From Neckera pumila (taxonomy: Eukaryota > Streptophyta > Bryopsida > Hypnales > Neckeraceae): a stretch of DNA of 64,000 nucleotides. The DNA lies in assembly GCA_963969595.1 (NCBI GenBank), contig OZ018411.1, positions 8,496,501 through 8,560,500 of the forward strand. The letters run 5' to 3'. A program made the position numbers and the translations under genes. Under the pieces are notes generated by a model, which saw only the letters and a list, made by a program, of their open reading frames with translations, was not told the DNA's origin and did no database searches. Within the stretch, counting starts at the first letter, position 1. Each line of letters starts with the position of its first letter. This document shows positions 2,998 through 63,712 of the stretch, piece by piece.

Positions 2998-4093
2998 CCC
3001 CTAAAGTTCCATGGCTATCTTCTCACCGAAAACACTTGAAAACTGCCATTTTTAGTACAAATATCCAATTTTTGAAAAAAGAATTTTGACATATGTAAAC
3101 ATAGGATCTTGTAGTATGGTGACTTGAGAACATTTGTTAAAAATTTCAGGAATTTCCACCGCGTGGATTGCAAGATATAAGCATTCAAATTCACTAAAAC
3201 CATTTTTTTGGCCCTGCAAAAAACAAGGCGGCAGCACTTCACAAGCTCGTTTTTTGATGAAAAAATGTCCAAAATGATGGTGCTTTTTATAATTCTTTTT
3301 CCTAGATAAGTTGGCTACATGCTTGAAATTTTTTACTTCATTTGGAATTGTACAACACATAGAAAAAAAATAGTAAGTGGATAGTAGTAGAGAATGATTC
3401 AAAATACTAAATTGTCAAGAATTTAATTATGGAATTGAAAAATGCAAATCCCAATGGTGGCAATGTTGTAATAAATAATCTACATCCTAGGATTTTATTT
3501 TTTTCAAAAAATATTGAGAATTGAGTAAGATAAAAGACTTCAAAGGTTATTTTAAAGTAGTGAATCCATAACTGCCCGCAAACTTCAAATCTTCATAACT
3601 TTTGATTCATTGATCAAAATGAGGTGATTCAAACCTTTTAACCTATATATACCTCTAGAAAACCAATTTCAAATTTTTGTTTTTGAAAAAAGTGATTTTT
3701 TTTATCTGCCCAAATTGCCCAGTTACAAAAAAGTAACATATTAGGCCATAACTTTTGACTCGTATTTCCAAATGTCATGAAATTTGGTGCATATGAAAGA
3801 TATTCCTTGCCCCCACATTTTATTAAAATTTCAGTCAAAAAAATGGAAATCTCTAGTCGTACATACCTGCCCAAAAATTCTATACGGCCGAAAAACGCAT
3901 GTTGGTCCTTTAGGGGTTAATCAAGGAAATTCTGGTGGCTCTTTGGTTGTGAAATTTAGTGTTTATGAAAGATATTCCTTGCCCCCACATTCTATTAAAA
4001 TATGGGCCCAAAATATAGAAATCTCTAGTCACACGTATCTACCCAAAAAAAATTATGTAGCCAAGAAAGGCATGTTGGTCCTTCAGGGGTTAA
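2994..4093 (+). mobile_element. TTAA-flanked non-autonomous element, copy 1 (piggyBac-like)
   Basis: It starts TTAACCCCTAAAG and ends CTTCAGGGGTTAA, so the terminal inverted repeats point inward from TTAA on both sides. The left subterminal region matches the other long copies: ACTTGAAAACTGCC, as in copies at 26077 and 44644. There is no transposase. The last 140 bp or so are present twice (about 3781-3920 and 3951-4093), and the internal copy also ends in CCTTTAGGGGTTAA, so the element has either a duplicated 3' end or a second insertion at its own TTAA. Short ORFs inside are not convincing. Confidence 0.75.
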
Positions 4094-5027: not shown

Positions 5028-5638
5028 ATGGCAGTGAGTCTAAAGGATATCTTGGTGCCGGTGTTGATCACCATCCTTTGAGATGTTGGCAGAAGGACGT
5101 TTTGGAGAGATGTTTCTAAGCTCTGGCTTGGAGTCCTGCACCAAGTCGGATTGGAAGAGTCAAATGAAGCAACAAATTCTGAACTAGAAAAACTTTCTAC
5201 CACATTTACAAATGCTATGAATACTTTAAGAGCTCGCAGTTGTAAGCTCTAACTATTTAGACTACTCTTCTATTGTTTGATTTTCCTAAAGACTACAACA
5301 TTTAATGATTCTTTTATGTTTCAGAAGGTACCTCCCATGTGTCTGCTGCTCCAACTCAGAGGCCGCAGACTCCAACTACTGCACCAACTCGGAGGCCGCA
5401 TGTTCCAACTGCTGCGCCACCTCTGAGGCTGTAGGCTCCAATTGGTGCGTCTCCTGCACCAACTCCACCAACTCCAAGGCCGCAGGCTCCAACTGCAAGG
5501 AGAGTTTTACAGACTGCAACTCCGAGGAGGACAACTCGAGTTGCAAGATTGCCAACTATTCTCAGACCGCTGCCACCTATTCTTAGACCTATAATCATTG
5601 AGATACTTGAAATTTTACACACTAAAATATTAGAGTAA
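5028..5638 (+). pseudogene. Degenerate two-exon ORF with proline-rich repeats
   Basis: Unrecognised. Exon 1 (5028-5241) begins MAVSLKDILVPVL and ends at a GTAAGC donor. It has an in-frame TGA at 5079-5081, after which the same frame continues as a plausible helical stretch (EESNEATNSELEKL). Exon 2 (from 5325 or 5328 after a TTTCAG/CAGAAG acceptor) encodes a Pro/Thr/Arg-rich run of imperfect APTxRPQ repeats, is interrupted by TAG at 5432-5434, and closes at TAA 5636-5638. Joining at 5328 keeps the frame, whereas joining at 5325 creates a stop. Two nonsense codons argue for a dead gene. A real short first-exon product of 17 residues is possible but unlikely. Confidence 0.35.
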
Positions 5639-6353
5639 TGCGATTGAGATTGGTAGGATGTATAATTAGATTACTGTGAATTTGGTTTTACATGTGGCTA
5701 AAGAATTAAATTTAGAACAATGCTACTGTGCTCTCCACTCCAAAATTCACAATTAATCTGAAGAATCATTGATTCCTTTCTTAACCTTGAATGTCCAAAT
5801 TAAGTTGGACACAAAGTTGTGGGTAAAACTATGGACAAAGCTGGATATCTCCTACACGAGGTTGAAGTATGCATGCTTAGGGTGGGAATAGGGTGTACCA
5901 TCTATGAGGTCACCATATTGTTGTTCTCTATTTCAATCTCCAGCTGCGCAGCATCCTCCAGTCCTTGCAGGTTCACTAGGAGATCCGCACTTGCTTTTAG
6001 GCCCCCTTTGCACACCGAAACAAATTCCACGTCATAAGCACCAGGTTGTATGAAATATCTCGACTCAAGCAATCCATACCTATGGCTTCAACTGGATTCA
6101 AAAGATGTACTAACCCAAGAATTGAAGTGACAGCAGGCGTGTGGGAAATTTGTAGCCCTTGGATATCCTTGTAAGCATACTCCTACTTCCTGCCAGAAGT
6201 TGATACATGGTTGGAACTGATGTGTCATTGGAACTGAAACAAGACACACATGACACATGACTCAGGATTAGCTCAAGTCACAAGCACATGGTTCATGATT
6301 AACAACAACATTGTATCCTTACCAACATAAAGCAAAAACCAGAGGATCACGTA

Positions 6354-10141: not shown

Positions 10142-10306
10142 GGGGTTTTGCAAAGCTTCGGAGGTAGGACAGCTCGGCTCCGAGTTGATTTCATGTGCAT
10201 CCGAATGCTCGCTTGAGACATCCTTTTACAGTTTCTGAAATTTCCTTTATAGATTTTCCTGGTGGTGTAGGCACCTTTGTTTTGGTTTTCAACGGCTGCT
10301 TGCAAC

Positions 10307-11718
10307 ATGGCTCGAAATGAAGAGAAAGCGCAGTCTATGCTTAGTAGGTTTTTGGCGGCTAAGAATGACGAGAAGAAGAAGCCAAAGGAAAAGCGTCCCT
10401 TCCTTGCGTCGGAGTGCCGTGATCTCGCTGACGCTGATAAATGGAGGCAACAGATTATTCGTGAAATCGGTCGGAAGGTAATGGACATCCAGAACCCAGG
10501 GCTTGGGGAACATCGCATTCGAGACTTGAATGATGAAATTAATAAGTTGATTCGTGAGAAAGGGCATTGGGAGACAAGGATTTTGGAGCTTGGAGGACCG
10601 AATTATGCGAAAACTGCTCCGAAGATCACTGGCGAGGATGGCAAAGAGGTAATTGCCAAACCCTAAAACCAGTGCTACTGGAAAATTTTGAATATTCTTG
10701 CTTTTCAATTGCGTTTTTGATTGCCTACACTGGGTTTTGTTCGATTCTTTTTTTAAATCTCTGTTTCTTAAGCAGCGAGTACACACTTCAAGATCGTTAA
10801 ACTTTAAGATCGTTGCGATTATTACAGAGTAAGAAACCGGAGAACGAAAATTCTCCGATTTCTGGGACGCTGCCTTAACCCTAAGCCAATGTTTGATTCA
10901 TGTGAGTATTCTGAGATTATGTGTTACTTTGCCCTAAACAATGGCCTATGTCTGTAGGTGGACATTGCAAGTGGGAAAGGCATGGGCTACAAGTATTTTG
11001 GGGCCGCGAAACAGCTGCCAGGAGTCAAAGAGCTCTTCGAGTTACCACCGGAAATAAAGAAGAAACGGAATCGGTATGAAATGTACAAGCGTATTGACAT
11101 GGACTATTATGGATTTCGTGATGACGAGGATGGCGTTCTCGAAAATTTAGAAAGGGATGCAGAGAAGGAGATGCGTGCTACGGCCATTGAGGAATGGGAA
11201 AGAATAGAAACCGTAAAAGCTGAAGCCCGCAAGGGTGTCAAAGAGGTGAGATTTTCAGCTTGATAAATGTTGCAAATGTGTTGGTTTAGGCTGTTTCATT
11301 GATTGTAGATCATACGTACGTAGTCACTGAGTATTTGAGACCTAGTTGCAGGGTTGAAGATCATGTATATTCTAGATACGTTTGTTTTAACCTGATGTGA
11401 TTTGATCTCTTTCATGTTGATTTCCCTTTGTGTGTACTAAGTGTCGGGATATTGCGGTTGCAGGTTGTTGTTATGAGACCAGAGACAGACGACAGAGATT
11501 ACAACAGCGATTTAAGTGACGAAGAGGTGGACGAGGATGAATCAGAGAGACGACCCAAAAGATTTGAGTTTGTTGCCCACGTGCCACTTCCAGATGAAAG
11601 AGAAATTGAGCGCATGGTCGTAGAAAAGAAGAAGCTAGAACTGCTGAGCAAATATGCAAGTGACGACCTGGTGAACGAGGAGCTGGAAGCAAAGGAGATG
11701 CTGAACATCCATAGATGA
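10307..11718 (+). CDS. ISY1: Pre-mRNA-splicing factor ISY1, three exons, intact
   Basis: ISY1 is a spliceosomal protein associated with the NineTeen (Prp19) complex and acts in the nucleus around catalytic activation. Exons are 10307-10648, 10958-11245 and 11464-11718, with GT..AG introns all in phase 0, giving 294 residues, close to the size usual for the family. The start MARNEEKAQSMLSRFLAAK is the conserved ISY1 N-terminus. The block EIGRKVMDIQNPGLGEHRIR is followed by the GGPNYAKTAPKITGEDGKEV signature, which continues across intron 1 into DIASGKGMGYKYFGAAKQLP, and then KRIDMDYYGFRDDEDG. The C-terminal part is acidic and then helical. The upstream in-frame ATG at 10277 would add ten residues unlike the family, so 10307 is preferred. 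A telo-box-like AAACCCTAAAACC lies early in intron 1. No disabling change is seen. Confidence 0.96.
10649..10957 (+). other. ISY1 intron 1
   Basis: It begins GTAATTGCC and ends TCTGTAG. It includes AAACCCTAAAACC close to the donor, a telo-box-like word often found near the 5' end of plant housekeeping genes. The reading frame is kept across it. Confidence 0.85.
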
Positions 11719-13826
11719 CCTTCGGTAGACCTTCGCAGTCAGATAACCTGTGCAACGTATGGACATGTTATTATCTAGGTCGAGCATTGATCTTTCTTTA
11801 GCTTTGGAGAGGAAGCTCACGGGTGCATTTGAGTTGCGAATTGTGGCCTCTTTGCACCAGGACTTCTTTGGATGTTCACGTGGTTGGTCCACCGGAAGAT
11901 TCATGCCTGTGTTTTCAACAACGATATTTTTGAGTGTGAAAAAATAGCGAAGATGTAGCTTAACCTTGTGGTTGAGATGGCAGGGGTCGAGAACTTCCCA
12001 AATTGTAGAAACGGGGAATCCCTTTTAGTTTAGCTCAAAGCAGTTAGGGGAATTTTCGATGTTGGCCTTATATGACCATCGATCAACCATGCAACCTGTG
12101 AGTAGGTTACACCAGGTTTGAGACTGGCTTAGAGTTTTCGAAAGATCATCATCGGACGTAGCGTTTCGAATTGATCATTCGAGCAATGCACGGTCTACCA
12201 GGATTTTACTCGATTTTTATGGAAGGTGTCGCAATCGGATATGAATTCACTGGAGCTATATCCCTTCAAAACCATGCACTTTTAGAATATGGAGGTGTTG
12301 ATAAGTTGAGACGGATGCGAACTTCTGTATCCCTTTAGTACTTCGTCATCATACATTAATTGTCTTCCTCTATTCTACAGGCGTAACGTTTGAGCGACGC
12401 TTCTCAGTGAGAAGCCAAGACGTTAACTACCCAGCAGTGGATGCGGCTGGATACATTTTTTAATTGCAGCTCAAGGTCTGTTTACATTGAAACTCCCCAG
12501 ACCTACAAAACCTTCTTAGTCATAATACTTACGGTTCAATCGAGAGACGGACCGAGTTGACATTACGATGCATCACTTGGAATAATCGTGGTGACAAACA
12601 ATCTGTGGGATAGAGATTAGGGGTTCTCAATGTTTGTGATTTTAGTCGCGCATACCTGTCATTTGTTTCCAAATCCAGCTCAACGTGATTCTGAGTTCTC
12701 ATCTGAAAGTACTACCCCTCTTGTAGAGATTTCAAATGGCATCCCCCAAATTGTCACCAACAAGTCTTCAACTCTGACATCTCTAGTGTTCACGTCACAG
12801 TTGGCCCATCGTAGAGGTTGACTTGAATTGCGTTTGGAAATCGTACTTTGGAGAAAATTAATGGCCTTGTGTCTAATTCGGTGACTAACCTAGCGATTCT
12901 GGATCTCTGGTCGATTCATGAATCCTGGACCCCAGCCTTTTCGCCTCTCCTCGATCTACCAGTCGGTGGCAGATGGACTGAAGCCATCGAGTTACTTTGG
13001 TGCCAAGGACCTGAAGGTGTTTGAATTCTTGGGGGGCCTGCGTAATTGGGAGTCAGCTAGTGTTTTCAGCACAAGAGTTTGCCGACTCGACATCAGTTGG
13101 AATTCTCACAAGCCGAATCCCTCACTTCTTACAAACAGGTGGCGGAAGTGAAGACTTGGTACAGGCAGAGAAAAAGGATCACTTCTTTACAACCAGTCGA
13201 AGAATTTTATGACAACCTGGAGGAGCACGCTCATTTGAATCTTTACTCTCGTTTTTCTCTACCTTCAATTCGAGTACGTAATTTTCAAGAATGTGAACTT
13301 CGGAAGTCTCCTACGCAGGCACGCTCACACTCTCATAACAATGTGAGAGAAAGTGTAGACCCAGGTAAAGCCAACGGAGTTTACTACCAGCTGAGTCTAA
13401 TCATGGCGATGGTGTCAGCTCTTCCATGGGCGATGGCTCCAGCGAATTCGTATTCGTTCTCTAGAAGGCGAGAAATTTTCCTCCATTGCCTAGAATTGTT
13501 GAAAAGAACCTTGTCGGGGATAGCAGCAATTAGGTTTTCAGCAATTAGATTGGACTAAGGCTAAAAACCCTACCGTTCTCAGTTGTCTTGGTGAACAAAA
13601 ACTTGAACGCCAAGTCTTTTGACACCAGCAACAAAGACGAGGTTGGCTCGTACTTGTTTCAGCGATTGTCGCAAGTGACGACCAGTGACACTGCGGAGCT
13701 CTATGACTTCCATTTGATAAGTTCCAGGTGAGCACCGGAATTTCATGTTTTATTGCTTGTGAGAGAAGCCGGATTGTTAAGTGAGAGTTTCGTGCATTCG
13801 AAACTCTCTCTGTCGAGGTTTCTGAA
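11719..13826. other. Region between ISY1 and the helicase remnant
   Basis: No gene is recognised in about 2.1 kb. Base composition is less AT-rich than the repeats further right. Overlapping open frames at 12918-13558 (up to 159 codons) shift among three frames without any known motif. A short ORF start at 13403 (MAMVSALPWAMAP) could be the decayed transit-peptide end of the helicase that follows, by position only. The first few hundred bases are presumably ISY1 3' UTR. Confidence 0.35.
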
Positions 13827-26076: not shown

Positions 26077-26826
26077 TTAACCCCTAAAGCCCCAAGGGTG
26101 TTTTCTGTCAAAAAACACTGAAAACTGCCATTTCTGCTGCGTTCACTTAGGAAACCCTTAAAAAAACATTTTTTTAAAATATAACTTTAGAATCTTGTAT
26201 TTCACTTCTCTAAGATCATGTGGTAAAAATTTCATCGAATTTGACTGTACGGATTGAACCATATGACCATTCAAAGTTTAGAAAAAAGTTTTTTTGAACT
26301 CTGCCCGACAGCTCTAGCTGCCTTTGACCGCCATTTATGGAAAAATTTTGCACTAAGGACTTTGAATAAAAAAAATCTCATGTATTGAGGATAATGTTAT
26401 ACATATGTCCACCAAAAATCACTTCAAAAAAATGTGTGGAACACATCCAAAAAAAATTTGAAATGACACAATGCCCTAGAAAATTGACAATACACTATCT
26501 TTTCTTGCTAGCAAGTTTTCTACCTCATAAATTCAATATATGAAAAATCTCAACGGTGGATTGAAAGATTTATTTTCCTTTAACAAACTCCCAAAAAAAA
26601 AAAAAAGAAAGAAAGAAAACTCTAATTTCTATTGAAATTAGAATGCTTTGGTGAGCCAAAGTCTTGTGGGCAATGACAAAAAAAGGGTCCCGGTTTGTTC
26701 CCCTGTGTTCCCGATATGTTCCCTACAGCGTTCCATTGCATGGGACCTCCAACTCACTACATCATCCATCTACAATGTACTCCATCCATCAAATGTTTCT
26801 ATCCAACTACTTCTCTATAAACTTCA

Positions 26827-27223
26827 AAAATTCATAACTAATTCCACAAATGTCCAAAAAATATGAAACGGCTTGGGTTAGATGCCATGTTCATTTTTCT
26901 TCCTTTGAGAATTTACTGAAAATTATTTCAAGCACTCCATCTTCTTCTAAAAGGCAATCAGCCCTCAAAAATAGCATACTTCCTTCTCTATGAACTTCAA
27001 AAATTCATAATTAATTCCACAAATGTCCAAAAAAATATGAAACGACTTGGGTTAGATGTCACTTTCATGTTTCTTCCTCTGAAATTCACTGAAAATTATT
27101 TCAAGCACTCCATCTTCCCATAAAAGGCAATCAGCCCTTGAAAACAGCATACTCCCTTCTCTATGAACTTCAAAAATTTATAATTAATTCCACAAAGGTC
27201 CAAAAAATATGAAACGACTTAGA
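26827..27223 (+). repeat. Tandem repeat, unit about 175 bp, 2.3 copies
   Basis: CATAA(C/T)TAATTCCACAAA followed by GTCCAAAAAATATGAAACG recurs near 26830, 27005 and 27177. Each unit also has ATTTCAAGCACTCCATCTTC and AAAAGGCAATCAGCCCT. A diverged single copy lies near 56140-56280. Confidence 0.85.
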
Positions 27224-27329
27224 TTAGCCCTAAAGGACCATTGTCCCTTTGGGGGACAAATGCGTTTTGGGGCATGTACCTACGGGCTGACATTTTCTCC
27301 TGATTTTTTGAAACTTTTTGTAGACGTGA

Positions 27330-27832
27330 AAACAATCAAAAAACTGTGAAAAATTCAAAAAGTGTCCAATGCTTCTACAATTTGACATGGAGGGGCCTAA
27401 TGTAGTAAGCCACATGCACACAAGTTTTTAGAACGTTCCACCCACCAAAGACAAAGTTGTGGCTATGTTTACTCAACTGTGACTAATGTGACCAATATCC
27501 CCAAGGGGTATTAGTCACATTAGTCACAGTTGAACCAATCTCCTAAAATGCATGCCTTCAAAGTTTGAAAACGGTCCCAAAACTTTCCAATAGTTTCAAC
27601 TAATCCTAAACAAACACCTCAACATATAAAATTAGAAAAGTCAATGCCAAATCCATTTTTAATTTTAATTTGGAATTAAAACAATCAAAAAATTGTGAAA
27701 ATTTCAAAAAGTGTCCAATGCTTCTACAATTTGACATGGAGGTGCCTAATGTAGTAAGCCACATGTACACAAGTTTTTAGAACATTCCACCCACCAAAGA
27801 CAAAGTTGTGGCTATGTTTACTCAAGTGTGAT
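27330..27832 (+). repeat. 155-bp direct duplication, copies about 348 bp apart
   Basis: AAAACAATCAAAAAACTGTG..GTGTCCAATGCTTCTACAAT..CCACCCACCAAAGACAAAGT..TATGTTTACTCAA is present at about 27330-27484 and again at about 27680-27832 with few changes. The hairpin at 27474 follows only the first copy. Confidence 0.9.
27474..27532. repeat. 28-bp-arm hairpin
   Basis: CAACTGTGACTAATGTGAC then CAATATCCCC pairs with GGGGTATTAGTCACATTAGT then CACAGTTG, with two mismatches and a 2-3 base loop. It contains internal repeats of GTGACTAATGTGAC type. It may be a very small inverted-repeat transposon or an extruded hairpin. Confidence 0.85.
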
Positions 27833-28508
27833 TATAATTGTGTACATAGAGTGATGTAATTTCTCAAATGTGAGTGAAATAATTGCACACGCTTCAATTT
27901 AGGTGCCACAAAGTCGATTCATGGCTTCTTGGTGCTCATGAAGTCAATTTTGAATGCAAATTATAGACTTTGGAGATTCTTCTCATTACCAAATTTGACC
28001 TACTTTTGTTTCAAATTTCACCCTAAACCCTGATTCAACGATGTAGAATTGACAAATTGAACACCCACAAATCCAAATTGAAGAATTGTCGTGAAATTGA
28101 AGCAGGGGCACAGAGGCGCGGCCTCATAGGCACCCGGCACCCCCTCTCCAACCAGGGGTTGGCGCTCACCTAAACCCACCCACCCACCTCTACCGTCCAA
28201 TGGGCGCCGACCAGGCACAGGGCAGGGTCTTCACCTGCTGCCCACCCCGGCCTGGTTCTGGCAGCCCAAAGTTTTGCTCGCCCTGAAGTCAACAAAAATG
28301 TGACAGCTCAGTCTGCCCTTAAATTGAAAAAGACTCATAAATTTTTTTTCTAGAATCCGATTGAAATAAAAATTACATATCCACAAAGCTCTCGCAAAAA
28401 TACACAACCTCTAAAAATCCCAAAAAATTTGACTTCATATTAAGACCATAGGTACCTGCCCGGACCCATTTTGTCCCCCGAGGGGACAACCGGTCCTTTA
28501 GGGGTTAA

Positions 28509-35662: not shown

Positions 35663-36611
35663 TTAACCCCTAAAGGATCAAGGCCTTTATTCTGTCAAAA
35701 AAATACTCAAAACTGTATTTTCTATAGCAAAGAGTAAGAGAATTTTAAAATTGTTTTTTTTGCACATCTTACCACAAGATCTTACACCTAACTAATATGA
35801 GAATGTGTGGAAAAAATTTCAGAATTTTTGATTGCACGGATTGCAAGACATTTGCATTTAAAGTGAAAAAACCCAATTTTTTTAAACACGTAGTGGGACT
35901 AGATTATTTGACTTTGAACCTTCTTAACTTTAATTTTTTGGACTACAAAGTTCTGAGCTTTAAATCTTCATGGTAGAGAATTCAGTTGAAAGTCTTCAAT
36001 TGGGGAAAAAAAATTCAGAAAACTTAAATTTCATACTTCTGAAAATTGTTAAATAGAAGTAGATACAAGATAGAAGGAGAATCTAAATTATTAATATCTC
36101 TAAAATGGAATTAAAATGCACTAATTCCAATGTCAAGATTGTTCTAGCAAGCAAACTAAACCATGTGGAATTTTGTTTTTGAAAAATTGTTAAAATTGTA
36201 TTCAAAAATGAATCTAATAAGTTATTTTTTCAAGAAGATGCTCTAATTGCCTAGAAAACAAGATTGTCCATAACTTTCTCAAAAAAAATCAAAATGGAAT
36301 GAATTAAATCTTTTGAGGTGGACAAAAATATAATCTATGAAAAAAAAATTAATCCAAAATTTTGAACTTTTTTTTGCTACCCCCTCTCCCCCCCCCCCCG
36401 CCCCCCCCCCCCGCCCCCCCCTACAGATTTTGAGTTGTTTGGGGCATAGTTTTTGTTCCTAGGCACCACTTGAAACAAAATTGTATTCCCATGAAGCTTA
36501 TCAAATTTTCTATCTTCAAAAAAATGTTTCAAAAAATCTGGTATAGCCCATAAGTACCTGCCTAAGATTCTCATTTGTCTCCCCAAAAGACAATGGTCTT
36601 CTAGGGGTTAA
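35663..36611 (+). mobile_element. TTAA-flanked element, copy 3
   Basis: It begins TTAACCCCTAAAGGATCAAG with the L-type subterminal TTCTGTCAAAAAAATACTC, and ends GGTCTTCTAGGGGTTAA with the R-type subterminal palindrome at 36575-36593. It is non-coding. A long C tract interrupts it. The final TTAA is directly followed by GGTGAAAACACCC, the same end motif that flanks the composite at 51267-53982. Confidence 0.85.
36380..36421 (+). repeat. Poly-C tract with interspersed T and G
   Basis: About 42 bases, almost all C, interrupted by T and by two single G. On the minus strand it is a G-run able to form a G-quadruplex. Length in such tracts is prone to sequencing error. Confidence 0.9.
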
Positions 36612-37949
36612 GGTGAAAACACCCAAAACCATCAAAATAGGCAATTGTACATTTTCTGTAGTCTTAGCAATTAGAAATCTTAAATTTTTTAAAAACAAAT
36701 TATAGTTTTGGATAAGATATGTAATACTATAGAAATTCAGTATTTGTTGCAATTTGAACTTAAGACCTATAACTGTAGTTTGTTGATTTTATGATCTTAT
36801 AATAACAAGATAACTTTGCTATATACCATGATGTAATACACTACAATATATTCCTATGGTGAATCCATGCCATGGTCATGGGCCCTCTGCTTACAAAATA
36901 TTAGAAAGTACAAAACATTATTAGCCAACATTTAGGAGGTCCCTTTTGCTCTTCCAAGAAGCAGGAGCCTCCACCATTGCATTTTTCTCAGCTAGCCAAT
37001 GATTCTCTACCAACCAAACTAAATCCACTCCCGAGAATTGAGGGAGGAACTGTATTAGTTGTAAACCCCCACCAAGACAAGTCACATTCAAAAGGTCGGC
37101 AAATTATTTCCCGTAATCTCTTCTTGACGCGTGAAATCCACTTTATCGATAATTATAAAATTTTCATTCATCAGTCACATATTTCATTCATTTTTGACAA
37201 AAAAAACCAGGCATTCCTCATCAAACTTTGCCCTCCTCGTCAAACAATTTTTTTCCTTCAAAATTCCCTCCGCCTCGATGATTGCCCTACACTCAAAGGG
37301 GGAATATGGTTTAGGGTCAATAACAATGTTATGGTGGACTGGTAGTCACCAACCTGTGGTCCACATTGCAACATCTAAGTTAAGCATAACCGGTTGTTGA
37401 GTTTTCAACACTCACGTGGCACCGTCCCATTGGCAACCCATCACCATTGCCATTACAAGTTGCAACTCATTACCTTCTCTCCTCTCAACTTGCTTCCTCC
37501 ACCCTTGGATCACGAAGATCAAAGGTTGTGACTGAAAAGTGAACAACCAGTTATATCCGATAACCTACTTGCCGCTACCGCGTCTCGTTGGTTATCTAAT
37601 ACATAACTTGTGCAGAAGGAGGGAAGCTGTCCGTACCTTACCTTACTCAGAGCCAAGGTTGGTGCCCCTTGCCCAAGGTTCTCCCCCCCTGCTCTCCAGG
37701 CTTTCTCTGATAGAGTACTAGAATTACCAACTATAAAAAGTTCATTGGCTCCCTTGTACTGGGACCCCAAAACCTTGATAAGCAATGATCCTCATGAATG
37801 ATGATCTTGCTTGCAGTACAAAAAGCTAACAACCTCATCAATGCTTCAACGCTTTCCAAATATTCATCAAAGAACCCCAACATTGGGGGGGGGGGGGGGG
37901 GGGGGGCAGTTATGGGTATACATATTTTAGAATATTTTCTTTGATGCCT
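36612..37949. other. Intergenic with G22 homopolymer
   Basis: No gene is recognised. A run of 22 G occupies 37885-37906. The first 100 bases resemble those at 51271-51370 (GTGAAAACACCCAAAA then ATCAAAA), so a related element end sits here without a partner. Confidence 0.5.
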
Positions 37950-39560
37950 ATGTAGGTTTACCAATTTCCATGGTCAATCACAACTCTTGCAGACCCTAGC
38001 AAATATGTGTTGTAGAAGATGACCTTTATTATTGTTTAACCCTTAAAGGACCATTTGTTTCCTCGGGGGCAATTTGGGTTCGGGCAGGTTCCTATTGTCT
38101 CAATTTTTAGTGATGTTTTTGGGATTTTTTGAGGTTGTGTATTTTTGCAAGAGCTTTGTGAATATATAAATTTTATTTTAGTTGATTCCTGGGAGCAAAA
38201 ATTATGGCATAATAAGCAAAAATGGAGTTTGGCGGGCAGCACAAAAAAAAATCACAAAAAGTCAAAATAATTTTATTTCAAATTTTCATTCCAAAGATTA
38301 TATTTTTGTCTACATGTGAAGCTTTGTTTAATTTAATTTGGACTAATAATGAAAAAGTTATGGACAATCTTAGTTTTTCGGGTAATCTAAGCATCTTCTT
38401 GAAAAAATAACTTGTAGAATTCATTTTTGAATGCAATTTTTAGAATTTTTCAAAAGAAATTGTTAGACAAGGTTAGATTTTCTTGCTAGAACAATCTCAC
38501 CGTTAGAATTATTGTGATTCAATTCCATCTAAAGCTATTAACAATTTAGTTTTTTCTTCAAACTTGGATCCACCTCTACTTAACAAATTTTTAATGAGTG
38601 AAAATTAAAGTGTTTTTTTTTCCTATTTCTTTTTTGGTAAATTCTCAACTCAACTTCTTAACATAAATAAATAGTGCAAAAATGAAAATCATTAGTGCAA
38701 AAAATTTGAACTAAAAATTTGAACTAACATATATGAAAATCAATAGTGCAAAAAATTTGAACTAAAAAGATTCAAAGCCAAAAAAATCTAGTCAAGCAAG
38801 GTGCAAAAAAACTTGTTTTTTTTTCACTTTAAATGCATACATCTTGCAATCTATATGGTCAAATTTTATAGAATTTTTTCCACGTATTTATATACTAGTC
38901 AAGTATAAGATCTTACAGTTGCATATGCAAAAAAAAACAATTTTTGAAGTTCTCTTCTCTTTGCATTAGAAATGACAATTTTGAGTTGTTTTTGATAGGA
39001 AAATCACCTTGGTCCTTTAGGGGTTAAGACGTCCTTTGTTGGTATTGTATAACATCTCCATAACAACTCTTCAACTAGGTCATTTCAAGGAGGCATGTCA
39101 CTGTTGATGGCCATATTGGAATCAATGGCTTGCTTGAGTTGATGCCTTGACCCCCTTTCTTCCATCTTCAAATGTGGTTGTTGCCTTGCCAATCAACCAA
39201 TCTACTTATTAGAGTATTGTCACATGCTATGACAATGTGCTGAGTAGTATGTAGGCCTACTAGTTTTTATGGCCAATCATAATTCTTGCAGATCCTAACG
39301 AGCATGCGTAGAGCATACCTGTAGAAGACAATGTCTAATATTGTTTAAGAGTAGTCCCTTGTCGGTGTTGTGTAACATCTCTACAAGAGCTCTTCAACTA
39401 GGCCAATTCAAGGTATTATGTTGTCACTCATTGGCATGTTGGGATCAATGGCTTGTTTAAGTTGGTGCCTTGATCCTCTTTCTCCCTGTCTTGGACTATA
39501 GTTGTTGCCTTGCCATTCCACTTGCTAGATACTGCCGTAGGCCATGGCAATGTGCCAAGT
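37950..39560 (+). repeat. 310-bp tandem duplication, first unit split by a TTAA element
   Basis: Unit A is 37950-38039 plus 39028-39247; unit B is 39248 to about 39560. Shared words include TATGTAGG, CTCTTGCAGA/TTCTTGCAGA, TAACATCTC, CTCTTCAACTAGG, ATCAATGGCTTG and GGTTGTTGCCTTGCCA/AGTTGTTGCCTTGCCA. Unit B is uninterrupted and shows the pre-insertion sequence. Confidence 0.92.
38036..39027 (-). mobile_element. TTAA-flanked element, copy 4 (empty site in neighbour)
   Basis: The left end is TTAACCCTTAAAGGACC (R-type here) and the right end GGTCCTTTAGGGGTTAA (L-type), so it is reversed relative to copy 3. The flanks ATTATTGTTTAA and TTAAGACGTCC collapse to one TTAA in the neighbouring repeat unit, which reads AATATTGTTTAAGAGTAGTC. 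That fixes the target duplication as exactly TTAA. It is non-coding and shares internal blocks with copies 3 and 6 (ATCTTACAGT/ATCTTGTGGT and CTAGAACAATCT). Confidence 0.93.
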
Positions 39561-43610: not shown

Positions 43611-44540
43611 TAGTACGCTTGGCTTAAATTAGCTAAAAAAAAAGAGCCATTTTTTGGCTAAATATAGGACCAAAGAACAAATTTTTACATAAATGTGAAG
43701 ATGGTTTGCCAAAAATCCAAAGAATCCAATAACAATTTGCTGAACCATATATTAACTATTATTTGACCATCTATTATCAAGAATTTTTTTTGATGGTTGA
43801 ATGAGGAATTACTTCATTGATATTTAGTGAGATTGAATGATTGAGAGGTTGTTTTTATAATGAAATTCACTGTCCGTCATGAATCCACAAAGAGTACAAG
43901 ACAGTTCAAAAATGAGAGCTTGACCATTCATTGTCAAAATGCAGGAATTGTGTTCAATGTATAACTTTAGACCTCATTTTGGCATAGTAGAATAACTTTT
44001 TCCAAAATCCTTAAGACCAAAAAAAGTTGGTAAATCCAAATTGCTTTCATCTTCAAAAACCCATTTGTAATTTTCAGCCTCCGAAAAAAAGTTATGGATA
44101 AAATTTAGAGAAGATGTTTGAAAATGTCAAAAAAAAAGTCCATTCTAACTTCTCTCTAAATTTTGTTAATAACTTTTGATTTAAGCTTCAAATCTCAAAC
44201 AGACTTTTAGAAATAAAACTTAACTTCATTTACTAAATTTTTTCAATTCAAAACTTTCTTGAAAAAGTTATTTTACTGTGCCAAAATGAGGTCCAAAGTT
44301 GTTGAATACAATTTCTGCTTTTGACTTAACTAGGTATGAGTGATTGAGCTCCTAGTAATCCTAATATACATATCCCACATGATTTGTTTTACCTCCTACC
44401 ACCTCACTTATATAAAGAGCTTGTCTTCTCTTGAAGATGCACTTACAATTAGTGGCCTTCAAATCTACATGAGTTTGCTTAAATGTTGCCAAATAGCTTG
44501 CAACATATGCTAAAATTTGATCAAATGTTAAAAACAAATT

Positions 44541-45490
44541 GCCTTCTTAAACCCCAACTGTTAACGGCTATGGTTTTGGAGGTTCAAATTTTCTTGCAAT
44601 ATTTAACACAATTTGGTCAAATGTTAAATTTTTTTTTGCCTTCTTAACCTCTAAAGTCCCAAGGCCATTTTTCTGTCAAAAATCACTCAAAACTGCTACT
44701 TTTGTTGCGTTCGTCTAAAAGATCAGAAAAAATATTTTTTTTTAGAAACTAACCATAGGATCTTATACTTCACTTTTTACAGATCATGTAGTAAAAATTT
44801 TGTAATGTTTGACCGTACGGATTGAAAGCTATCAGCATTCAAAGTGAAAAAAATGTTTTTTTCAAGAAGATGCTCTAATTGCCCAAAAAACAAGATTGTC
44901 CATAACTTTCTCATAAAAAGTCCAAATGAAATGAATCAAAGCTTCCCAAATAGGCAAAAATATATTCTATAAGGAAAAAAAACTAAAAAAATTAGATTAA
45001 ATTTTTTGCAAAATTTTTTGCTGCCCCCTCTCCCTTGTTTTGAGCTTATTTGGGCATAGCTTTTGCTCCTGGGCACAAATTGAAATAAAAATTACATTCC
45101 CCCAAAGCTAATAAATTTTTCTATCTTATGGAAAACTTTTAGAAAGTTTCATAAAAAAAATGAGCTCATAGGAACCTGCCCAAAATCCATTTTGTCCTAC
45201 CTAAGGACAATGGGACTTTAGGGGTTAAACCCCTGCCGTTAACGGCAACGATTTTGGAGGTTCAAATTTTCTTGCAATATTTAATACAATTAGTCATATG
45301 CTTAAAAATTTGCCTTCTCAAACCCCAGCCGTTAACGACTATAGTTTTTGGGGTTCAAACTTTATTGCAATATTTAATACAATTTGGAAAAAAAATTGCC
45401 TTCTGAAACCCCAACCGTTAACGGCTATGGTTTGGGTGGTTCAAATTTCTTTGCAAACTATGCTAGAATTTGTTCAAATGCAAAAAAAAT
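44541..45490 (+). repeat. Tandem array of 86-97 bp units, one split by a TTAA element
   Basis: Units start at GCCTTCT(T/C/G)AAACCCC near 44541, 44638, 45312 and 45398, each with a CCGTTAACGG-like palindrome and GGTTCAAATTTTCTTGCAA. The second unit is broken after GCCTTCTTAA and resumes with ACCCCTGCCG after the inserted element. The array lies within the MULE-like element. Confidence 0.92.
44644..45228 (+). mobile_element. TTAA-flanked element, copy 5 (empty sites in array)
   Basis: TTAACCTCTAAAGTCCC on the left, GGACTTTAGGGGTTAA on the right, 585 bp, non-coding. Removing it with one TTAA restores GCCTTCTTAAACCCC, exactly the sequence of the neighbouring unit at 44541. The R-type palindrome lies at 45192-45210; the L side carries TTCTGTCAAAAATCACTC. 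Shortest complete copy of the family here. Confidence 0.95.
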
Positions 45491-48432: not shown

Positions 48433-49772
48433 TAAACAACGAGCTAATTCCTTGGGTTTGATTTTTGAGAGAACCACTAACATAAAGTCTTTACTTTAGT
48501 TTTTGGAATGTTTCAACCTATTGTACCTACTTCAGTAGGGAATATAGCTTGCCAAGCCCCGCATGTTAGCTGCAAAATGAAAGCATTATTCACTACTCAC
48601 TTTTACATGCCCTGACCATCCAAACTTTGGGCAAGCTACAAGACTGATGCCCCGCCTCAATAAGACTTTTTACTTTCCTTTGGAATGACCTCTGAGGCTT
48701 AAAAAAACAATGATTCAAATTGTCATTTATAGTTGATCCAACGGAAATGACTTCCTGCAATCATTTTCTTGCAGCCGATTTCTCTCATTTTCTCTAAGGC
48801 ATGACGTTTAATTTAAAACTTAATTTCATTTAAAATTGTCCAACATATACGAAAAAAATAAGTAGATAATAGTAAAGAATGATTCAAAATACTAAATTGT
48901 CAAGAATTTAATTATAAATTTGAAAAATGCCAATTTCCAATGGTTGCAATGTTGTAATAAATAATCTACATCCTATGATTTTATTTTTTTCAAAAGTGAG
49001 TAAGATAAAGGACTTCAAAGTTTATTTTAGAGTAGAAAATCCATAACTGCCCGCAAACAAAAAATCCTCATAACTTTTGACTCATTGATCAAAATGGGAT
49101 GATTAAAAGCTTTCTACGTATGTATAACTTTAGAAAACCAATTTCAATATTTTATTTTTGAAAAAAGTGATTTTTTTCTGATCTGCCCAAGCTGCCCAGT
49201 TACAAAAAAAAGTAACATATTAGGCCATAACTTTTGACTCACATTTCCAAATGTCATGAAATTTAATGCATATGAAAGATATTCCTTGCACCTACCTTCT
49301 ATAAAATTCAGTTAAAAATATGGAAATCTCTAGTCATACAAACCTGCCCAAAATTTCTATATAACCAAAAATCGCATGCTAGTCCTTTAGGGGTTAATCA
49401 ATAAGCTAAGCCTTCAGGTTTGATTCCTGAGAGAACCATTGACAAAAAAGTTTTACATTTATTTTTTTGGAATGTTTCAACCTATTGTACCCACTTCAAT
49501 AGGAAACATGACTTGCCCAACCCCGCATGTTGGCTGCAAAATCAAAACACTATTCACTACTCACTTTTGCATGCCCTAACCACCCAAACTTTGGGTAAGG
49601 CAACAAGACTGATGCCCCTGCTTCAAGAAAATTCTTTTATTTCCCTTTGGAATGCCCCGTAAGGCTAAAAAAACAATGATTCAAATTGTTAGTCATAGTT
49701 GATCTGACGGAAATGACCTCCTGCAGTCATTTTCTCGCAATTTTCTCTGAGCATGACGTTTACAAATGTGGA
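48433..49772 (+). repeat. 380-bp direct repeats flanking a truncated TTAA element
   Basis: Copy A (48433-48812) and copy B (49394-49772) share GGTTTGATT, GGAATGTTTCAACCTATTGT, ATGTT(A/G)GCTGCAAAAT, ATTCACTACTCACTTTT, ACAATGATTCAAATTGT and GGCATGACGTTTA/AGCATGACGTTTA. Between them lies a TTAA-family remnant. Both copies begin at a TTAA. This could be a tandem duplication later invaded, or a small element with terminal direct repeats. Confidence 0.85.
48815..49397 (+). mobile_element. TTAA-family element, 5'-truncated, subfamily of copy 1
   Basis: It matches copy 1 from about 3335 to 3920: GAATGATTCAAAATACTAAA, ACATCCTA(G/T)GATTTTATTTT, CATAACTGCCCGCAAAC, GGCCATAACTTTTGACTC and CCTTTAGGGGTTAA at the right end. 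The left terminal repeat is missing. It shows that the copy 1 subfamily, which lacks the R-type palindrome, has more than one member. Confidence 0.85.
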
Positions 49773-51266: not shown

Positions 51267-52108
51267 TAAAGTGAAAACACCCAAAAATATCAAAAGAAGC
51301 AATTTAGCATAGTTGCAGGCACCATTCTAAAAATGGTTTTTTCAGTAATAACAATTGAAAATCATGAAATTTTAAAGAAATTATAATTTTTGAAGGAAGC
51401 ATGTAATTATTATGAACTTTTAGAGTGGAAGCTTTCTAGACCACTAAAACCATCACATAGTTTGGTCATAAACAGAATTTTGATAATCAATAGTTCACCA
51501 ATTACAACAAAATATAGAGATCTTTTAACCTCTAAAGTTCTACTCAATCTATGGGAGAAAAACGAACATTGGTGGAACTGTATAACCTCAAAAAGAGTTA
51601 AAAATAATTAATTCAATAATTTTTTTTTCATAGATGACATTTTTGTGTGTTGTAAATGGAAAGCTTTTATTCATTCTATTTGTACTAGTGATGTGAAAGT
51701 TATGCTGGAGCTTCTTATTTTGCAAGCAATCAAATAAACTTTTAGAAAATATAATGTATTGGATCCGTTTATGAACTCCATTTATAAATTAAAAAAAATA
51801 AAAAATTCAATATAGTTAAGTATGCTTGCTAGAACAATCTCACTATTGAGATAAGTGTGTTTTAGTTCCATCTTAGAGCCATTAACAATTTAATTTATCC
51901 TTCAATTTTGTAGTAATTTCTTAAAGAATGAAAATCAAGTTTGTTTTTTTCTAATTTTTTTCAAATAATGTGAAATAATGTCAAATTAGAATTCTGCTAG
52001 ATAATTTCTTTTAAATCAAAATATTTTGTGCAATAACTTCAAGTTAAAGAAGATTCAAAGTCACATAATGTAGTTATAAAACATGCACAAAAATCCAATT
52101 TCTTCACT

Positions 52109-53037
52109 TTAACTCTTAAAGAACCATTGTCCTTTCGGGAGACAAATGGAAATTTCAAGCAAGTACTTACGGGCTGAAATTTTGTCCTGATTTTTTGAAT
52201 TTTCTAAAAAGATAGAAAAATTGATTAGCTTTGTAGAAATATAATTTTTTATTCAATTGGTGCCCCCAAACAAAAGTTATGCTCCAAATAGCTCGGAGTT
52301 TTGAAAGGGAGGAGGGAGAGAGAAGGAAGGACAAAAAAAATTAGGAAAATTAGAATTTTCTTTTTTGAATTTTTTTCCACAGATTATATTTTTTGTCTAC
52401 CTAAAAAGCTTTGATTTGATCCATTTGAATTTGGTATGAGAGAATTATGGACAATCTTGTTCTTTTGAGCAATTAGACGGCATCTTCTTCAAAAAATAAC
52501 TTGTAAGATTCCTTTCTGAATGCAATTTTTACAATTTTTCAGAAAAAGTTCCACATGGTTGAGTTTGCTTGCTAGAACAATTTTGCCATTGGAATTAGCA
52601 CATTTTAATTCCATTTTAGAGATATAAATAGTTTAGATTCTCCTTCTATCATGTACCTACTTCGATTTAACGATTTTTTGAAGTATGAAATTTAAGTTTT
52701 TGTGAGTTTTTTTCCCTAGACTCTCAATTCAATTCTCCACCATAAAGATTTAAAATTCAAAACTTTGTAGTGCAAGAATTTTTAAGTTATGAAGGTTCAA
52801 AGTCAAATAATCTAATCCCGCAATGTGCACTTATTTTTTCCACTTTGTAGATATCTTACAATCTGTGTGGTCAAAAATTCTGAAATTTTTTCGATACATC
52901 TTCATACCAGTTAGGTATAATATCTTGTGGTTAGATGTGCAAAAAAACAGTTTTTAGATTTTCTTACTCTTTGCTATAGAAATGACAATTTTGAATGTTT
53001 TTGGGCAAAAAAAAGGCCTTGGTCCTTTAGGGATTAA
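52109..53037 (-). mobile_element. TTAA-flanked element, copy 6
   Basis: The left end is TTAACTCTTAAAGAACC (R-type, palindrome at 52127-52145); the right end is GGTCCTTTAGGGATTAA (L-type, preceded by GAATGTTTTTGGGC). It is non-coding and in the same orientation as copy 4, with which it shares a long stretch of internal sequence. Confidence 0.88.
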
Positions 53038-63040: not shown

Positions 63041-63712
63041 TTAATCCCTAAAGGAGCAAGGCACATTTTGGATACAAAACTTGAAAAATTGCCACCTTTT
63101 AGGACAATGAGAAAAAATGAAAAAGAAAGTTTTCTTCAAAATTCAATAGAACAAATTTGTACTAGACTATTGTAGGAATGTGTAAAAGAAATTCAAAAAC
63201 TTTGAGCACACAATTGAAAGATTATAACGTTTGATGTTAGAAGAAAAAGTTTTCTTTTGACCTTCACTACAAGAGAAAGGGGTGTTTTAAGTAGTATTCC
63301 AGACATCACGTCTTTTAAGTAACGTCTTTTGAGTAAATTTTTAAGTAAAATTTTACTAAAAAGATTACAACAAGGTCAATAGACTTTAACTCCTCCTAGA
63401 GTGAGATTTTTACATTGCACATGGTTATTTTGTTAATATTTGCATCTTGTATCATGTAAGTTATGTACTTGTCAAATTTCAAAATTATAGGAGGAGTTTA
63501 GATCATGTTGCCCAAAATTGCTTAAAAATTTTAGGCAATATAACATTTGATTTGGGCACCCAATTGGGATAAAAATGATATTCTCACTAAGAATACATGT
63601 TAATATCTTGTGTCATAATTTTGTGAACATCCAACCAAAATTGACTTCGTAGGAACCTACATGATTATTTTTTTTAGTATATTGAATAGACACTTGATCC
63701 TTTAGGGGTTAA
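63041..63712 (+). mobile_element. TTAA-flanked element, copy 8
   Basis: TTAATCCCTAAAGGAGCAAG on the left and GATCCTTTAGGGGTTAA on the right, 672 bp, non-coding. The R-type palindrome is absent. CACTACAAGAGAAAGGGGTG at 63267 resembles a CACTA left end, but no matching right end is seen within the element. Confidence 0.8.

Follow-up and report, generated by a model that had tools for sequence, protein, structure and literature searches.

An element of 984 bp at positions 38040-39023 of a 64,000-nucleotide stretch of the Neckera pumila genome (the window; C4:8496501-8560500, in an assembly of 339.5 Mb in 18 contigs) is, with a probability of about 0.94, a non-autonomous member of a piggyBac-type family of cut-and-paste transposons in this moss, resembling a miniature inverted-repeat transposable element (MITE). 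The element itself is non-coding. A first-pass annotation had proposed a piggyBac identity from the insertion site. This identity is borne out by transposase genes elsewhere in the genome, which lie between the same or nearly the same ends and TTAA tetranucleotides, and it is these genes, not the site itself, that are decisive.

Filled and empty target sites

The element was described in the first-pass annotation as interrupting one unit of a tandem duplication of about 310 bp, and alignment of the two units agrees. Unit A without the element (37949-38039 joined to 39028-39247, 311 bp) matches unit B (313 bp) at 76.0% identity (228 of 300 columns), and a BLAST search with the joined flanks returned unit B at 73.3% over 277 columns (E = 2e-41). 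At the junction, unit A reads ATTGTTTAAGA--CGTCC and unit B reads ATTGTTTAAGAGTAGTCC; the border falls on the single TTAA of unit B, and the sole gap close by is of 2 bases, a few bases downstream. Filled and empty states are therefore both present in the window, as had been claimed, with one intact TTAA and no element in unit B. The element terminates in CCCTTAAAGGACCA and CCCCTAAAGGACCA, 14-bp inverted ends that start with CCC and differ by one mismatch. With the TTAAs included, the inverted pair spans 18 nucleotides and is 94% matching.

As excision of piggyBac is seamless and leaves no footprint (PMC7351741), unit B might be an excision scar instead of a pre-insertion site. This is improbable: the units differ by 24%, whereas the focal copy differs by 9.5% from the majority of its seven top-matching genome copies, a biased sample whose members lie 0.75-2.0% from their own majority. 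From these divergences, the element most likely inserted after the duplication, and unit B is unlikely to be the excision product that the annotation had named as a threat to its reading. Furthermore, empty paralogues with a single TTAA were found for five other insertions.

The ends recur with TTAA beside them. With up to two mismatches allowed, 16 instances of the 13-base end were counted in the window; as shuffled sequence gave a mean of 0.71 and a maximum of 3 (100 shuffles), this count is not due to chance. TTAA directly precedes 15 of the 16, against a background of 502 TTAA starts in 64,000 window positions. In a set made up of the window, 7 element loci and 20 transposase loci (291,530 bases in total), TTAA precedes 65 of 74 ends, and 42 of 44 where at most one mismatch was allowed; the nine other tetramers are TTAG (three), TAAA (two), ATTA, TGTG, AGGA and CAGT. 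Because some of these loci were fetched for holding the element, the window count carries less bias. In the whole genome, the exact sequence TTAACCCCTAAAGGACC (TTAA plus end) was found at 12,107 sites (6,010 + 6,097; reversed control 0 + 0), a figure that covers TTAA-preceded ends alone and stands without a genome-wide denominator of all CCCCTAAAGGACC ends. The scanned ends begin with 5′-CC, except for 5′-TC at window position 63045.

A single filled and empty pair at a TTAA target looks identical whether TTAA or the TA within it was duplicated, and the annotation's word "proves" was to that extent slightly too strong for one site, while TTAA itself holds. On the alternative reading, the element would be a Stowaway-like Tc1/mariner transposon that begins ACCCC, with a true duplication of TA. 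The outer T should then be free to vary, yet TTAA is nearly constant before the near-exact ends and the window ends, and the transposase inside the large elements with such ends belongs to PF13843. The choice of TTAA is settled by this transposase together with an outer T that hardly varies across the family, and the TA reading was rejected as very improbable.

The annotation had also treated TTAA targeting with a CCC terminus as diagnostic of piggyBac. TTAA alone is not, as Kolobok makes TTAA duplications too (PMC9587614). Its termini are 5′-RR...YY-3′ (PMC9587614), however, and the CC start does separate the moss ends from them; Kolobok also differs by its transposase, whereas the PF13843 transposase found here matches piggyBac and piggyBat structures. 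Kolobok, or another TTAA-duplicating superfamily, was rejected on the 5′-RR termini and has scarcely any probability left. PIF/Harbinger (Tourist) elements, frequent among plant MITEs, have a target that overlaps TTAA (PMC10004981), but a 3-bp TTA/TAA duplication would give unequal ends (ACCCC on one side, CCCC on the other) and a free fourth base, and with a nearly constant fourth base and a transposase of another family this reading is negligible. What was found is a TTAA target with a 4-bp duplication, as in piggyBac, together with short inverted ends starting 5′-CC, mostly CCC, as piggyBac ends do (CCCCTAAAGGACC, CCCCTAAAGTCCC, CCCCTTGGGGACTA, CCCCTAAG/CCCTTAAG and CCCTTTAACG).

Empty sites were sought by joining the flanks of 30 border pairs, 28 with TTAA on both sides, and searching the 291,530 bases only; the pairings 2998-4089 and 26081-28504, counted among the 28, are alternatives or composites. 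A junction-spanning match was obtained for nine of the 28, and in six of these nine a paralogous place lacks the element and keeps a single intact TTAA. A duplication of any other length, the outcome that the annotation had said would overturn its reading, was seen at none of the six informative sites. Two of the six insertions are transposase-coding elements. Empty sites of L019:1985-7610 carry TTAA in L032, L027 and L020, and are diverged in the remaining matches; those of L020:2328-7950 carry TTAA in L019:1337-1642 and L032:9373-9718, most others being diverged or shifted. Within the window, many uninterrupted relatives of the older copy that hosts the element at 52113-53033 show one TTAA at that point.

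The family is abundant. A genome search with the focal element gave 10,489 first-look candidates, of which 40 were scored to yield 41 matches; nearly all of these, apart from the window copy, are about 930 bp long and 84-85% identical. Matches to six query elements, four of them window copies, cover about 11.7% of the window (7,471 of 64,000 bases). As a separate observation, elements of another family (family C, below) are placed, at L025:1985-2000 and L027:2051-2066, precisely at the TTAA flanking a short element, among poorly related neighbours; the TTAA of one insertion seems to have been reused by the next.

Transposase genes between matching ends

A PF13843 profile search of the genome yielded 872 candidates at first look and a scored list of 116 matches, the best at E = 4.6e-80; 35 of the 116 have no stop in the matched stretch. 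Twenty transposase loci were fetched. A search up to 1.5 kb from the first ten met no family ends, probably owing to the greater length of the elements, and seven of the 20 gave no clear pair of ends. Six are elements of 5.6-7.3 kb with TTAA on both sides and the outer 14 bases identical at the two ends. Family A (L026:1181-8403, L028:1589-8888 and L033:1634-8965, TTAAs included) measures 7.22-7.33 kb at 95.4-99.1% identity, and its copies lie on C7, C1 and C6 in differing flanks. Family B (L019, L020 and L021, on C9, C2 and C8) measures 5.63 kb at 98.8-99.2% identity. In both, the transposase is enclosed by CCCCTAAAGGACCA or CCCCTAAAGTCCCA ends and TTAA. Families C (L025/L027, 5.37 kb, 98.9% identical) and D (L034/L035/L037, about 6.18 kb, 98.7-99.2%) end in different sequences that likewise start with CC and are flanked by TTAA, and for family E (L036/L038) one end only was found. 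At one end, the focal copy can be aligned with family A for about 62 bp (81-83%) and at the other for about 206 bp (69-71%); its two alignments with family B cover about 177 bp (66-67%) and 216 bp (69-70%).

The larger elements with matching ends encode a DDD transposase of the PF13843 family (hmmscan E = 4.9e-81). The family-B protein, an 894-amino acid (aa) stop-to-stop frame, matches Trichoplusia ni piggyBac (PDB 6x67) at E = 3.2e-35, and the piggyBac catalytic triad D268/D346/D447 aligns with D547/D638/D756 of the moss protein; these columns are invariant in an alignment of 25. An AlphaFold model of its last 517 residues (mean predicted local distance difference test score 85) adopts a predicted piggyBac fold, with piggyBac as the best PDB match (template-modelling score 0.68/0.74), followed by piggyBat and then Tn5. 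Stop-to-stop frames reach 880-999 aa in three copies, with the DDE domain beginning at residue 405-518. By eye, a Cys-rich C-terminus (C-x2-C, C-x2-C/H, C-x4-C-x4-H) ends P0121 and L026 and is present in the consensus; the PF13842 zinc domain was not reported by hmmscan of the transposase. A second gene was sought among nine further open frames of the larger elements, and none rose above the Pfam cut-off, two lying below it (E = 0.06 and 0.093).

A palindrome of 17-21 bp is found immediately inside one end (about bases 14-35): TTGTCCCCTCGGGGGACAA in family A, the young copy L004 and window position 28504, TTGTCCCTACGGGGGACAA in family B, CGAGGACACAATGTGTCCTCG in family C and CGTCCAGTTTCTGGACG in family D. 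Its scores were equalled by 0-7 of 500 shuffles, and that of a weaker palindrome in family E by 84 of 500. The sequence varies between families while symmetry and position are kept, which speaks for a function. For A, B, C, D and L004, the opposite end offers no partner for it, the best matches being no better than shuffles. A simple one-sided rule is contradicted by window copies 26081 and 44648, which carry a different palindrome at the other end (equalled by 1 and 9 of 500 shuffles), and several window ends, including the focal one, showed no palindrome in the scan. Right after the focal left end there is an apparent decayed form of the family palindrome (TTGTTTCCTCGGGGGCAA), whose best arm of 3 was matched by 408 of 500 shuffles.

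By analogy with T. ni piggyBac, the transposase would bind the ends, acting in trans on the short copies, cut beside TTAA through hairpin intermediates and insert into another TTAA, leaving the donor site seamless. The palindrome may be the seat of the C-terminal zinc domain of a transposase dimer.

Several observations weigh against assigning the focal element to a piggyBac-type family. The focal copy is old, and its palindrome is below recognition by the scan. For 19 of the 28 TTAA-flanked pairs there was no junction-spanning match in the 291,530 bases, and for L006:2849-3755, L020:8662-9580 and L026:1185-8399 the junction matches reach only 66.8-76%, with a tetramer that differs from TTAA. 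The short copies match two large families at their ends only, and no exact parent was found. The fold matches have a large overall root-mean-square deviation (12.5 Å for 6x67), probably reflecting domain placement in the model. No copy was seen as a complete working gene: the L026 transposase is in two pieces of 324 and 509 aa, the frames are 655 aa in L020 and 621 aa in L021, and that of L033 ends ahead of the Cys/His motif present at the ends of L026 and L019. No movement was observed, and current activity is inferred.

Two further structures accompany the transposase genes. Downstream of the transposase frame, the L028 element has a palindrome of 684 bp (element positions 5469-6152; 90-94% self-complementary), as do L026 and L033. 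It may represent a nested foldback element or give rise to double-stranded RNA. An apparent tandem array of units of about 350 bp (L022:7746-9840) adjoins a piggyBac transposase gene.

Relatives and known systems

Protein searches returned 101 relatives, and six more with family C as the query; where an organism was given, as for a minority of the entries, it was an animal. Of these 107 relatives, 45 (32 without an organism label, 12 animal-named and one other) were combined with 15 of the 20 moss loci in a 60-row tree, drawn with a midpoint root and containing several long branches. The label of one row is presumably that of a sponge. A branch with 100/100 support separates all 15 moss rows and 19 unlabelled rows from the 13 animal rows, and the several divergent moss families thereby share one clade that excludes the sampled animals. 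Some unlabelled rows may be moss DNA in environmental samples; no relatives in viral contigs were found by the patterns used. Moss paralogues within the clade fall to about 33% identity, so the diversity is old or reflects several entries. On balance, the analysis leans towards an endogenous plant system: a deep piggyBac clade of the mosses' own, still or recently active, with thousands of copies, long N-terminal extensions and an end palindrome that docks the transposase dimer.

The moss system resembles T. ni piggyBac (PDB 6x67/6x68) in its DDD transposase, fold, TTAA duplication and CC-starting ends. A palindromic-like internal repeat near the end is also shared (PMC7351741), although in T. 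ni the internal repeat is at both ends and in the moss coding families the palindrome was found at one end only. The moss frames of 880-999 aa, counted from stop to stop and not from start to stop, compare with a T. ni protein of 594 aa (PMC7351741), and the moss elements, at 5.4-7.3 kb, with beetle piggyBac elements of 2.07-3.47 kb, in which CCCT is the commonest terminus (PMC12732532). The second-best sequence and fold match is the bat element piggyBat (PDB 9c0f), weaker than piggyBac (query residues 382-795, E = 1.7e-23). The short copies are like plant MITEs (Stowaway, Tourist and others) in being short, non-coding and numerous, with inverted ends.

The annotation had called piggyBac elements very rarely described from land plants, and reports from such plants are indeed rare. 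No report of piggyBac in a moss or other bryophyte was found among the open-access titles and passages listed, where absence is not proof. A strict "unknown in plants" does not hold, as a MITE review counts PiggyBac among seven angiosperm MITE superfamilies (PMC10004981). Elsewhere, a table for C-Fern has 1,230 PiggyBac entries at 0.00% of the genome (PMC6890710), one for feather grass has a single entry (PMC8319324), and a 2008 grapevine paper gives only five other superfamilies as then described in plants (PMC2528002). The plant example in a 2025 paper is red algae (PMC12732532), and a haptophyte alga has seven PiggyBac families in the table and six in the text (PMC5963040). For the moss Ptychostomum, inverted-repeat transposons make up 29.13% of the genome, with CACTA the largest, and "piggy" is absent from the paper (PMC11704416); "piggybac" in a Niphotrichum paper is "expression piggybacking", not a transposon. 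A moss set of elements that is abundant and diverse, includes transposase genes and has probably moved recently would be a strong case from the land plants, and could supply plant-native transposases and ends for footprint-free engineering. Plant-centred repeat annotations of mosses may file such elements under other names.

Other features of the window

Positions of the focal element, the tandem units and further family copies are collected in Table 1.

Table 1. Positions of the focal element, its target site and related copies in the window.
Feature	Position	Strand	Basis or remarks
Second TTAA-flanked copy, 919 bp	2998..3916	+	Empty site 647-874, TTAA 674-677, 86.8% over 228 bp
Composite stretch, family ends at 26081, 27227 (without TTAA) and 28504; tandem repeats inside	26081..28504	+	
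TTAA-flanked family copy, 941 bp, no empty site found	35667..36607	+	Joined-flank search
Unit A of tandem duplication, filled: 91 + 220 bp flanking the element	37949..39247	+	Alignment
Left TTAA target-site copy	38036..38039	.	Direct reading
Focal non-autonomous piggyBac-type element (probable), 984 bp	38040..39023	+	Direct reading, inverted-pair listing, genome matches
Left terminal inverted repeat CCCTTAAAGGACC	38040..38052	+	Inverted-pair listing
Right terminal inverted repeat CCCCTAAAGGACC	39011..39023	-	Inverted-pair listing and end count
Right TTAA target-site copy	39024..39027	.	Direct reading
Unit B, empty site, sole TTAA 39345-39348	39248..39560	+	Direct reading, joined-flank search, alignment
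Third copy with empty sites, 577 bp	44648..45224	+	Of three places, one (44497-44647) has TTAA intact, the others TCAA and TGAA
Partial family copy, one end at 49393	48825..49393	-	Window comparison
Fourth copy with empty sites, 921 bp	52113..53033	+	Nested in older family member (51589-52112, 53034 onward)
TTAA-flanked element, 664 bp, only ends match other window copies	63045..63708	+	Window comparison

The open frame at 10271-10666 holds a conserved exon of the splicing factor ISY1 (Pfam E = 2e-55); the other seven of the eight window frames scanned with Pfam gave no match. Over 88% of the query, the exon shares 95% identity with a protein of Ceratodon purpureus, which identifies the host as a moss and upholds the land-plant origin assumed in the annotation. 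A 415-bp inverted repeat (873-1287 and 2376-2790) has arms 98% complementary and 1.1 kb apart, and the neighbouring arms hold the empty site of the second copy.
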